Assembly: GCA_903930515.1 (NCBI GenBank)
Contig: CAIYYW010000264.1
Coordinates: 1 to 7,110 of the forward strand
Length of the DNA: 7,110 nucleotides
Reading direction: 5' to 3'
From: an uncultured delta proteobacterium
GTDB lineage: Bacteria > RBG-13-61-14 > DRUE01
Part shown: piece by piece, positions 3,093 through 6,155 of the stretch
Numbering within the stretch: the stretch's first letter is position 1
How the letters are laid out: each line of letters begins with the position of its first letter
Position numbers and translations under genes: made by a program
Notes under the pieces: generated by a model
Database searches by the model: none
The model's input: the letters and a program-made list of their open reading frames with translations, nothing else
What the model was told of the DNA's origin: nothing

Positions 3093-4148
3093 TCATAAAA
3101 TTCGGTTTATGATCAGATCCAAATTCATCTCCCAAATCTCAGGAGAAAAGGAGATCTTATCAAGACCGCGAATCTGGCTGACAATATCAATTGGAATGGC
3201 ATTGAATTCGGGAGTTAAGGCCAGCAATATTGGCTTGAGGTTAAAATTACGGCCACCGATAATATGACCGCCGAGATCTTCTCTGGACCAATTTATATAG
3301 TAGTCCAACTGCCCGGGAGAAAAATTTACATTGGTGGATGATTTGGGATGCTTTAACTCAATCAGCCGGTATAAAAATCTAGTCTCATCCAATTTTTCAA
3401 TGATAAAAATGTCTATTTTTTGCATACCGGAACCGGCAAACAATTCATTCCCGATCCAGACGATATTTTTGCCGAAGATCTCAGGGTAAAAGTTATTATT
3501 TCCCAATTTTAGGTTTTGGAGAAGGAAGGCCTGAAAATGAACTTCTCTTTTTCTTATTTCCTGCTCGCTAACCCTGATGGGCGTGCCAATATTATGATCA
3601 TTAGTCTCCTCCCCTGGAATGATTTGGCAATTTTCGGAATCCAAAGAAAAACTTTCCGCCTGCATAAATTCGCCATTATTTTCGCTCCTGATCAGAGAAA
3701 TTAATCTCTCTAATTCCCAGGGCAAAAGCATGGTGTTGCCCCGACCGCCTTTCATTTTTCGGTAGATCAAAGTCCAGAGTAATTCTTTGGCATAGGTTGG
3801 CAATTTATCTAAAGCCACCCATTCCAAAACCCCCTTGGAATAAACTTGGTAAGGCTTGATTTTCTTTCTATAAATGAGCTTTAGCGGCAAATCTGGATTT
3901 TGAGCCGAAGGCCCGGTCAAGTGATAAACGACATCTTCCACAGCTTGAAACAATCCGAAGAAGCGGCCTTTTCTTATTTTCGTTCCTTCAATATAGAAAA
4001 AGATCAGATCTCCCGTCTTAATTCTCAGCATATCCGCCAGCAGGCTGATGTTGTTGTCTTTTTCTCTGGAACTGGTTCCCACAAACATGTTTTTTAAGTG
4101 AATGGGCAGGGTTTGCTCATTGACGATAAAAACATGTCCAGTGATCAT
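3093..4148 (-). CDS. Probable restriction endonuclease: PUA/EVE-like domain plus PD-(D/E)XK nuclease
   Basis: This 351-residue protein probably has two domains. The N-terminal half (about 1-155) is beta-rich, with GDLIFFYIEG (46-55), GRFFGLFQAVEDVVY (61-75) and GRGNTMLLPWELERL (135-149). This arrangement resembles PUA/EVE/YTH-like folds that read modified bases, but the assignment is tentative. A low-complexity linker (about 157-200) leads to a C-terminal PD-(D/E)XK nuclease: helix with Glu202, QKIDIFII with Asp246, LIELKH with Glu264 and Lys266, then a helix with Gln280 and Tyr284, an arrangement also seen in DUF91/NucS-type nucleases. The start ATG overlaps the methyltransferase stop as ATGA, indicating translational coupling. 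The pairing argues for a Type II-like restriction enzyme, though a modification-dependent nuclease cannot be excluded. It is AT-richer than the flanking genes. Recognition sequence unknown. TGA stop at 3093-3095. Confidence 0.82.
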   Translation of the reverse strand: MITGHVFIVNEQTLPIHLKNMFVGTSSREKDNNISLLADMLRIKTGDLIFFYIEGTKIRKGRFFGLFQAVEDVVYHLTGPSAQNPDLPLKLIYRKKIKPYQVYSKGVLEWVALDKLPTYAKELLWTLIYRKMKGGRGNTMLLPWELERLISLIRSENNGEFMQAESFSLDSENCQIIPGEETNDHNIGTPIRVSEQEIRKREVHFQAFLLQNLKLGNNNFYPEIFGKNIVWIGNELFAGSGMQKIDIFIIEKLDETRFLYRLIELKHPKSSTNVNFSPGQLDYYINWSREDLGGHIIGGRNFNLKPILLALTPEFNAIPIDIVSQIRGLDKISFSPEIWEMNLDLIINRIL

Positions 4149-5281
4149 ATTGCTTTCCTACCTTTCTTAAACAAAAGAATGTACTCGTGCTTAAAAATAT
4201 AAAACCCTCCCACCAGGGCGCGATATCTCCAGAGTTCTTTCTGGTTTCTTTTCGCACGGGTCTCATCGAAATTTTTAACTATGATTCCCTTCAGGGTATA
4301 ACCTCTCTTTTTGACTTCTTCCATGCAATAAAATCCGAGTGGAAGCCATTCTCCCTGCTGGTATTTATCTCCGATCACCACGGCAAGGAATCTGCCGGGA
4401 TCAAGATAGGGAGTCAAATTTTCCACCACTTCGCCGAAGTTTTTCAAAAAATCTTGCAGGCTTTGGGAATTGGACAGGTCTTCTTGTAAGCCGCTGAATT
4501 TAATGATGTCAAAATAAGGCGGATGCAGGACGGCTAATTGAAAAGATTTGATACCGGATTCGGATAGAATTTTCTTATAATCAACCTTCCTTGAATCTCC
4601 GACGATCACCTCAGTCTTTGCATCCTTTAAATTTCTCTCCTTTTCAATCAGTGCTTTTGCTTTTTCCGCGACGACCGGGTTAATTTCAATACCGATTCCA
4701 TTTCTTCCCAATCGTTTGCCTTCAATCAAAGTGGTACCGCTTCCAAGAAATGGATCCAGCACCGATTCCCCCTGCTTGGTGTATCGCAACATCAACTGCC
4801 TGGGGATTTGGGGAATAAAATTCCCCCAATACCATCCCAGATGCGCTCCGGAATTGTCTCGTTTTTCAATCAGCCACAAGCTGTCTGTGATGATCTCTTC
4901 GTATTCCTGCCAGCGGTTCAAATCCAGATCATTGTAGCGCGAGATTCTAGACTCAGTTATGCTTTTGATCAGCCGGTTCAGATAATATCTTGCCCGCTCC
5001 AAAGTCCGGGCTGAAAGCATCTGGTCCATCTGGCCGAGGAGCACAGAAGATTTATATTCCACGATCTCAGCCGGGTTCAAGGTTATCAAAGAGGAATCCG
5101 AATTTTCCTGGATCAGGCTATCGCGCAATTTACCGAGCTGTGAGCGGAAGAGGTTGATGGAATCAACATTTGACAATTCCGCCAGCCGGTTCATCAAATG
5201 AGACCGGTTCATGGTCAGGTACTTGTTCCCGCTCGGCGCTTTTTGCTCAAATAAATTTTGGGCTGGCTCATCCTTTTTCAT
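4145..5281 (-). CDS. DNA amino-methyltransferase (N6-adenine or N4-cytosine) of an R-M pair
   Basis: An S-adenosylmethionine-dependent DNA methyltransferase of 378 residues from ATG 5281 (TTG 5302 would add 7; residue numbers here count from that TTG). A helical N-terminal region of about 150 residues precedes motif X (HLGWYWGNFIPQIPRQL, 154-170), motif I DPFLGSGTT (183-191, AdoMet loop), an acidic strand end GIGIEINP (203-210), GDSRKV (235-240), motif IV HPPYFD (260-265, catalytic), VVIGDK (308-313) and the closing HEYILLFKK (372-380). X-I-IV order with PPY marks an exocyclic-amine methylase. Adenine N6 or cytosine N4 cannot be told apart here. Motif IV has His where Asp, Asn or Ser is usual. 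ATG 5281 is chosen because a strong promoter ends just upstream and overlaps the TTG. The gene precedes and overlaps the nuclease gene, so methylase would be made first. It probably protects host sites from that nuclease. Confidence 0.92.
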   Translation of the reverse strand: MKKDEPAQNLFEQKAPSGNKYLTMNRSHLMNRLAELSNVDSINLFRSQLGKLRDSLIQENSDSSLITLNPAEIVEYKSSVLLGQMDQMLSARTLERARYYLNRLIKSITESRISRYNDLDLNRWQEYEEIITDSLWLIEKRDNSGAHLGWYWGNFIPQIPRQLMLRYTKQGESVLDPFLGSGTTLIEGKRLGRNGIGIEINPVVAEKAKALIEKERNLKDAKTEVIVGDSRKVDYKKILSESGIKSFQLAVLHPPYFDIIKFSGLQEDLSNSQSLQDFLKNFGEVVENLTPYLDPGRFLAVVIGDKYQQGEWLPLGFYCMEEVKKRGYTLKGIIVKNFDETRAKRNQKELWRYRALVGGFYIFKHEYILLFKKGRKAI

Positions 5282-5290
5282 TACTCTAGA

Positions 5291-5319
5291 ATTATTTACC
5301 AAAATTCAGTTCAGGTCAA
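5291..5319 (-). promoter_or_regulatory. Sigma-70-type promoter of the R-M operon
   Basis: On the minus strand, TTGACC (5314-5319) and AATAAT (5291-5296) are separated by exactly 17 bases; each hexamer matches five of six consensus positions. The expected transcription start is about base 5284, leaving only three bases before ATG 5281, so the methyltransferase mRNA would be nearly leaderless. No Shine-Dalgarno sequence precedes that ATG, which agrees. The alternative TTG start at 5302 lies inside the promoter and would not be transcribed from it. Confidence 0.72.
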
Positions 5320-5336
5320 CTCTGGATCAGGTTCAG
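5305..5336. repeat. Short TTCAG/TCAGGT repeats around the R-M promoter -35
   Basis: On the plus strand TTCAG occurs at 5305-5309, TTCAGGT at 5310-5316, TCAGGT at 5327-5332 and TTCAG at 5332-5336, covering the spacer start, the -35 and the bases upstream. They could be binding sites for a regulator or for the methyltransferase itself, but such short repeats may also be chance. No controller (C) protein gene is present in the cassette. Confidence 0.3.
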
Positions 5337-5429
5337 ATCTTTGTGGCCGAGGTCGGAGATTGCGCGCCTATTGCCCAAAGGCCTTTTCCCGGAGTGTTTA
5401 AATATTCCTCTTGCGGCATAGGTTTTGAA

Positions 5430-6155
5430 TTATCGGTATGAGATCAGACCGGGTCGGTCCAAGTGCGGGGTTGTGTTGAATGAAGCCAGGGAAAATTTAT
5501 CCTCGCTATATCGGAATTCGGTGATGGATCCATTGGCAATCACCCATCCCAGCTCCAGCGCGGTTTTGTCTCCGAGGCCCAGGGCTTTTTGGATCGCCGC
5601 GGAAATGGGGCCTCCGGAGGTGAACACGGCCACGGTTTTCCCAGAGCCTTGTTCCGCGATCACCAGGTCCAGGCCTTGGTTCACCCGGCCGGTGAATTCC
5701 CTCCAGGTTTCCATTCCGGGCAGTTTTAACTTTTCGTCCACCCACATATCCATTGCCCGGGCGAAAACTTTTTGGAAAGCCTTTTTATTATTGACCAGGT
5801 CGGGCGGGACGCCCGATGCCGGCTCTTTGACCAATTGCGCGAGCTCGGGATACTGGGTGAGCACGGTGGAAAGGGAACCGGTCAGGAGGTGGCGGGTCTC
5901 GTATTCGTCAAAGTTGTTCAGGATGATCGGGTCGGGAAATTTTTCGCCCGCCGCGGAGAACTCTTCCTTTACCCATCGCGCGCTGTTTTGCTGTCGGACC
6001 AATGCCCCGGCGTAAACCGCGTCCGGCCGGATCCCCCGCTGGACCCAGAATTTTCCCAGCGAATGCATCTGGACCTCGCCCAGCTCCGAGAGCCGGTCGT
6101 AATCGGCCTGTCCGAACGAGGCCTGTCCGTGCCGGATTAAATATAAAATGCTCAT
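5430..6155 (-). CDS. Histidine phosphatase family protein (PGAM-like)
   Basis: A 241-residue cytosolic protein of the histidine phosphatase (phosphoglycerate mutase-like) superfamily. IRHGQASFG (7-15) carries the phosphorylated His9, with Arg8. LVRQQNSA (52-59) supplies Arg54, and DEYE (83-86) the probable acid Glu. The second core His, normally in a xHGG motif late in the chain, is replaced: FTSGGPIS (178-185) has Ser180. From memory this SGG form recurs in a subfamily ending SFNxTPHLD (here 225-233), so it is likely a subfamily trait rather than decay. Substrate unknown. It lies upstream of the dehydrogenase and kinase on the same strand, now separated by the R-M pair, and may act on phosphorylated or CoA-linked intermediates of that pathway (inference). 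A near-consensus promoter with a palindrome lies upstream. The Shine-Dalgarno is poor: AAAGGA is 17 bases from the ATG. TAA stop at 5430-5432. Confidence 0.9.
   Translation of the reverse strand: MSILYLIRHGQASFGQADYDRLSELGEVQMHSLGKFWVQRGIRPDAVYAGALVRQQNSARWVKEEFSAAGEKFPDPIILNNFDEYETRHLLTGSLSTVLTQYPELAQLVKEPASGVPPDLVNNKKAFQKVFARAMDMWVDEKLKLPGMETWREFTGRVNQGLDLVIAEQGSGKTVAVFTSGGPISAAIQKALGLGDKTALELGWVIANGSITEFRYSEDKFSLASFNTTPHLDRPGLISYR

Follow-up and report, generated by a model that had tools for sequence, protein, structure and literature searches.

In a 7,110-nucleotide stretch of DNA from an uncultured delta proteobacterium (hereafter the window), the gene at positions 3093..4148 on the reverse strand encodes a 351-aa protein that joins an N-terminal EVE/YTH-fold domain to a C-terminal NucS/EndoMS-like PD-(D/E)XK nuclease domain, and this gene is coupled to that of a DNA methyltransferase (MTase). 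In our judgment, the pair is probably a Type II-like restriction–modification (R-M) system in which the EVE domain flips and inspects a base of the target and cutting is blocked by cognate methylation.

The nuclease open reading frame (ORF) starts with an ATG that is preceded by a purine-rich stretch. Upstream lies the MTase gene (4145..5281, reverse strand); its ORF reaches a TTG at 5302, and the in-frame ATG at 5281, which agrees better with the relatives, is the probable start. Read directly from the DNA, the stop codon of the MTase gene and the start codon of the nuclease gene share a 4-bp ATGA overlap (4145..4148, reverse strand). The translational coupling described in the original prediction is therefore borne out by the overlap, and the pairing is conserved at other loci. 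The MTase matches Pfam N6_N4_Mtase (1.8e-22) and the PADLOC Type II MTase profile PDLC03351 (1.7e-142). Within its SAM-binding motif I, DPFLGSGTT (4730..4756, reverse strand), D183, F185 and G187–T191 are invariant in seven MTases; its catalytic motif IV, HPPY (4514..4525, reverse strand), is of the amino-methylase type and occurs in all full-length relatives, being absent only from the truncated MTase of genome G055. The G+C content of the pair is 0.41–0.44 compared with 0.52–0.57 in the neighbouring genes, which encode an acyl-CoA dehydrogenase, an APH-like kinase, a histidine phosphatase and a protein that we take from its sequence to be KAS III-like (all 0.56–0.57), as well as a DUF2878-like protein (0.52). 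No counterpart of the pair was found in two other genomes of the source’s very small phylum. Together, the low G+C and the missing counterparts indicate that the MTase–nuclease pair was probably acquired horizontally.

Profile matches and fold comparison assign residues ~1–160 (3669..4148, reverse strand) to the EVE/YTH fold of the PUA superfamily. Pfam EVE (PF01878) matched the window protein with an E-value of 0.0062 (17 bits, under the cut-off) and four of six family members in all, with a best value of 5.4e-5; the orthologue from G040, which is 41% identical, clears the cut-off (25.7 vs 23 bits). Supporting this assignment, the NCBIfam EVE-type family PRK00809 matched the relatives from G163 (2.8e-6) and the viral contig L018 (2.7e-6), and a profile of the eight-member family, searched against the PDB, returned EVE structures first (1wmm, 5.9e-5; 2p5d, 5.9e-4). 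An AlphaFold model built from three sequences had an overall pLDDT of 47.6, with local values of about 50–80 in most of residues 1–80 and 90–110. The top Foldseek matches of this model were EVE/YTH proteins (2hd9, 4.3e-5; THYN1, 2.7e-4; VcaM4I, 6yex, 0.011). A VIA comparison of model residues 1–167 with 2p5d gave a Z of 11.5 and an rmsd of 2.5 over 121 residues, YTH domains scored Z of about 10, and the fold matches listed for these residues are EVE or YTH proteins. The whole-model search is informative on the N-terminal domain only, and the missing nuclease match in it is uninformative. Since family profiles and model fold matches agree, the earlier guess of a PUA/EVE-like domain was right, and the fold search placed the N-terminal half among EVE/YTH folds rather than in an unrelated domain. 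EVE and DCD domains are hard to tell apart by profile (PMC7641849). A DCD identity, prompted by the HVFIVN..T motif, gained no support: PF10539 gave no match here or in the orthologues up to an E-value of 10.

The C-terminal domain, residues ~195–351 (3096..3566, reverse strand), is identified by profile matches and a conserved core as a NucS/EndoMS-like PD-(D/E)XK nuclease. Its putative catalytic residues are D246 (3411..3413, reverse strand) and E264-L-K266 (3351..3359, reverse strand), the latter aligned with the ELK of NucS, followed by Q280 (3309..3311, reverse strand) in a QxxxY motif as in NucS. The original prediction had correctly placed D246, E264-x-K266 and Q280 in the presumed nuclease core, and all are invariant in eight of eight relatives, as are E202, W231 and N234. 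With the family profile, NucS/EndoMS structures were matched in the PDB at 0.015 (2vld, the best match to the C-terminal half) and 0.38 (5gke). The NucS profile matched the G163 protein at 3.1e-4, and NucS_C matched a distant relative from G385 at 3.2e-4. Against the full-length NucS profile, the C-terminal stretch alone matched (19.9 bits vs a cut-off of 216), the N-terminus being EVE. The protein thus carries the E...D...ExK...QxxxY core of a NucS-like PD-(D/E)XK nuclease and is not NucS/EndoMS proper. The predicted order of secondary-structure elements (helix, three strands, helix) is compatible with a PD-(D/E)XK core; AlphaFold models of this half, within the whole protein and alone, had pLDDT under 40 and are too poor to serve as evidence. 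The REase families of PADLOC matched neither the window protein nor its closest relatives, and gave a weak REase_II match (9.6e-4) only for a relative from Halobaculum. The original prediction had allowed that close homologues might be characterised conventional Type II enzymes; none was found for the nuclease in the PDB, NCBIfam or PADLOC (REBASE lay outside the search).

The detection of modified bases is the role usually ascribed to EVE, YTH and SRA domains. In VcaM4I, the pocket residues P24, W82 and Y130 hold the flipped base, T11, E15 and main-chain atoms lie at its Watson–Crick edge, and Q128 acts as a wedge (PMC7897488). In the window protein, T13 (4110..4112, reverse strand), invariant in eight of eight relatives, is by sequence position a tentative counterpart of VcaM4I T11. 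Position 93 is Tyr or Phe in the MTase-coupled members, and F22, W125 and Y129 are invariant in the family alignment. A basic Gly/Arg loop, Y-R-K-x-K-G-x-R-G-N-T (residues 129–140; 3729..3764, reverse strand), occupies the position of the DNA-wedge loop of EVE domains and is shared by the six full-length members with a coupled MTase, with N138 replaced by Cys in G040; hhalign alignment to archaeal-type EVE supports the placement of both W125 and this loop. The classical EVE/YTH tryptophan position after the first helix is Val or Ala in the MTase-coupled members, and Trp only in the divergent G055 protein. These correspondences are drawn from sequence alignment rather than structure superposition, and they suggest that the classical aromatic cage is only partly present in this family. 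Of the pocket that the original prediction named as support, T13, the aromatic residue at position 93, W125 and the basic loop are conserved, whereas the classical tryptophan is not. For this reason, we put forward methylated-base reading by the EVE domain only as a possibility. A Type II-like coupled pair was likewise part of that prediction and is retained here. A base-flipping module for the unmodified target, with cognate methylation blocking the reaction, agrees with the evidence no less well than the separate methylation reader that the prediction envisaged.

The order MTase, then EVE-nuclease is found in the window, at locus L001, in G040, G163 and G134 and on the viral contig L018, so that six full-length loci, spread over different families, preserve it; a degraded version occurs in G055. 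Identity of the nucleases to the window protein is about 65% in L001, 41% in G040, 32% in G163 and G134, and 32–34% in L018, and at every full-length locus of the subfamily the same MTase, 51–57% identical to that of the window, lies directly upstream. The ATGA overlap recurs in G163 and G134, while the genes overlap by 1 bp in G040 and are separated by 5–12 bp in L018 and L001. The L018 pair (IMGVR_UViG_3300007351_000038, 3541-5846) comes from a contig that was classed as viral, which suggests that it is carried by a phage or provirus. L018 was the only locus found in viral-contig searches with nuclease queries; tblastn with the window nuclease found no plasmid or phage relatives, and the G163 query found one remote plasmid relative. 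On a Halobaculum plasmid, a divergent relative of the nuclease is solitary, with no adjoining MTase. Matches in G115, G181 and G117 to a profile of divergent EVE-nucleases were set aside, as only the NucS-like part is in common.

In G055, the MTase is truncated at residue ~234 and lacks HPPY, and an intact, divergent EVE-nuclease follows it. Behind these come an ORF of 106 aa and a C-terminal remnant of a window-like nuclease, and then the genes of a beta-type MTase and of a BglII-like enzyme (PF09195, 2.4e-21). This region (L011, 3135-7382) is a mosaic restriction island, and it looks as if a segment had been replaced within an older MTase–nuclease pair.

A profile search for the MTase across 386 genomes recovered 14 close full-length homologues (E < 1e-140), plus some truncated ones. 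EVE-nucleases adjoin four of the 14, and also the truncated G055 MTase. Another four (G153, G126, G142 and G071) adjoin a protein of 230–279 aa with a SAP-like N-terminus and a IDIFFDGQPFDLK core, and remnants of SAP-type partners lie beside two more (G279 and G069). One MTase (G148) has an HNH-like partner that matches PADLOC REase_II (1.5e-38) and the IceA family of Pfam (3.6e-5, just under the cut-off); the remaining three have no recognisable partner. A conserved protein of ~277 aa with SAP-like and D-x-K parts was seen at L040 (2609-3448), L041 (2607-3440) and L038 (418-1251); it has no PADLOC or NCBIfam match and apparently represents a restriction enzyme family, as yet without a name, whose partners belong to the same MTase subfamily. 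The recognition site could not be derived through these alternative partners, the SAP-type enzyme having no named relative and the HNH partner being only IceA-like, which is too weak. The MTase tree mixes EVE-linked with SAP-linked members to some extent, with two changes each; the strongly supported branches alone force just one change per label, and the tree is therefore no proof of repeated partner exchange.

A second type of pairing comes from G385. Its distant EVE-NucS nuclease resembles the window family over both domains (hhalign E-value 3.2e-12, probability 97.6), and at L095 (907-2747) the stop of the nuclease gene shares 1 bp with the start codon of an SPPY MTase gene. This Type II MTase (PDLC03353, 1.6e-96) belongs to another family, unrelated to the window MTase, so that the G385 genes appear to be an independent EVE-nuclease/MTase pair. 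EVE-NucS nucleases thus occur with two different MTases, and one MTase occurs with several restriction enzyme partners, which is the pattern of Type II restriction enzymes; judged by gene context, the EVE-nuclease occupies the seat of such an enzyme.

Based on these findings, we propose a probable mechanism for the pair, which would make it a DNA defence that tells self from non-self. The amino-methyltransferase (adenine-N6 or cytosine-N4) would mark host copies of a short target, and the translationally coupled nuclease would cut DNA that lacks the cognate mark by means of its NucS/EndoMS-like PD-(D/E)XK domain. The EVE domain would dock on the DNA, most likely flipping the target base into its pocket, and would serve as the specificity and checking module, with cognate methylation rendering the site unacceptable. 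Base flipping, a target sequence, and methylation that blocks rather than triggers cutting are what we infer. The Type II enzymes EcoRII, PspGI and Ecl18kI are known to flip bases that carry no modification (PMC4081073). The nuclease gene is paired with a Type II MTase, and the motifs of both enzymes are intact. A Type IV enzyme has no cognate MTase, whereas a coupled MTase is present at every full-length locus of this subfamily; this conserved partner speaks for a Type II-like system and against a solitary Type IV enzyme. Several observations count against the Type II-like reading, namely the modification dependence of the characterised EVE nuclease VcaM4I, the solitary Halobaculum relative, and the window MTase itself, which has an unusually long branch (1.01) in the tree and is less similar to that of L001 (55% identity) than is the nuclease (about 65%). 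The usual Type II pattern is the opposite. The G055 nuclease, intact behind its truncated MTase, would also be expected to harm the cell if unmethylated DNA were its substrate, unless protection came from another enzyme.

Some of these observations give weight to a Type IV-like alternative, which we regard as unlikely though worth serious consideration. In such a system, the EVE domain would recognise a modified phage base and trigger cutting, and the MTase would add a different mark that is not attacked. This would spare the host, or it would expose foreign DNA of both kinds, unmodified and modified, to cutting; it is the model proposed by Bell et al. for EVE proteins near Type I R-M systems (PMC7641849). 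VcaM4I cuts 5mC/5hmC DNA (PMC7897488), EVE-PD-(D/E)XK proteins have been predicted to be Type IV enzymes (PMC7641849), and both the solitary Halobaculum protein and the intact nuclease behind the dead G055 MTase point the same way. However, a constant, translationally coupled MTase would be superfluous for a Type IV enzyme, other restriction enzymes pair with the same MTase subfamily, and the classical pocket tryptophan is not retained in the MTase-coupled members. A dual-input enzyme, which would cut DNA without the cognate mark while its EVE domain additionally recognises modified phage bases, seems to us rather doubtful; if it exists, a single R-M pair would attack both unmodified DNA and the modified phage DNA that defeats ordinary Type II enzymes.

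Among PD-(D/E)XK Type II enzymes, site recognition is often the work of the catalytic domain alone. In keeping with this and with the partly conserved pocket, the NucS-like half might find and cut the target on its own, with the EVE half serving as a generic DNA-docking or dimerisation module that reads no base. Selection speaks against this. In one orthologous pair (G163/G134), dN/dS was 0.126 overall, 0.076 for the EVE domain, 0.144 for the nuclease and 0.237 for the linker, so that the EVE half is under the strongest purifying selection, as expected if this half carries a fixed specificity. The invariant residues T13, F22, W125 and Y129 on the pocket and loop side, together with GxRG in the coupled members, also speak against it, and we consider it quite improbable. 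That an orphan MTase merely stands beside an unrelated, possibly inactive nuclease, as the long MTase branch and the decay in G055 might hint, is very hard to credit given the gene order conserved across six full-length loci of different families, the intact catalytic motifs and the purifying selection in the G163/G134 pair.

The Type II-like pair that we favour has partial precedents. Bell, Wolf and Koonin (2020) counted EVE-PD-(D/E)XK fusions among the putative Type IV enzymes and described EVE proteins encoded next to MTase-containing Type I and SWI2/SNF2 systems, as well as DCD–MTase fusions followed by PD-(D/E)XK genes (PMC7641849). The former fusions share with the window protein an EVE-like reader and a PD-(D/E)XK nuclease, but were published as modification-dependent, whereas the window subfamily is coupled to a Type II MTase at each full-length locus. 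The DCD operons likewise unite an EVE-like domain, an MTase and a PD-(D/E)XK protein; there, however, the reader is fused to the MTase, while in the window it is fused to the nuclease and fits the EVE rather than the DCD profile. VcaM4I (PMC7897488; PDB 6yex) has the same succession of N-terminal EVE domain, linker and C-terminal nuclease, but its nuclease is a modification-dependent HNH enzyme, in contrast to the PD-(D/E)XK domain of the window family, in which the VcaM4I-type pocket is incompletely conserved. The mismatch endonuclease NucS/EndoMS (2vld, 5gke) has the ELK...QxxxY core in common with the window protein, which differs from it in its EVE N-terminal domain, MTase partner and R-M context. 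Systems of PDLC03351-type MTases with SAP- or HNH/IceA-type enzymes share the MTase subfamily and gene order, with an unrelated enzyme in place of the EVE-nuclease.

Two further EVE proteins were noted during this work. The window’s own genome (G000) encodes, on contig C362:1704-2051 (L088, 1072-1920, reverse strand), an EVE protein with an HNH-like C-terminus and thus the VcaM4I architecture, and may therefore hold both kinds of EVE nuclease. In G107 (L085, 700-1836, reverse strand), EVE is joined to another domain that may be a nuclease of a different kind, and the 3.3 kb covered contain no MTase, making this protein a candidate Type IV enzyme.

The EVE-PD-(D/E)XK architecture has thus already been published, and the constant coupling to a cognate MTase is the new part within the literature searched, where no account of EVE-NucS nucleases constantly partnered with Type II MTases came to light (REBASE and subscription papers lay outside the search). 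The family is small but widespread and places a PUA-type reader within the restriction enzyme of a methylase-coupled system. Because MTase-linked and solitary relatives both exist, it offers a direct way to test whether such a reader can change from one polarity to the other (‘cut if modified’, ‘cut unless modified’) and which residues of the pocket decide this. It would also add a new restriction enzyme architecture, possibly with new specificities.
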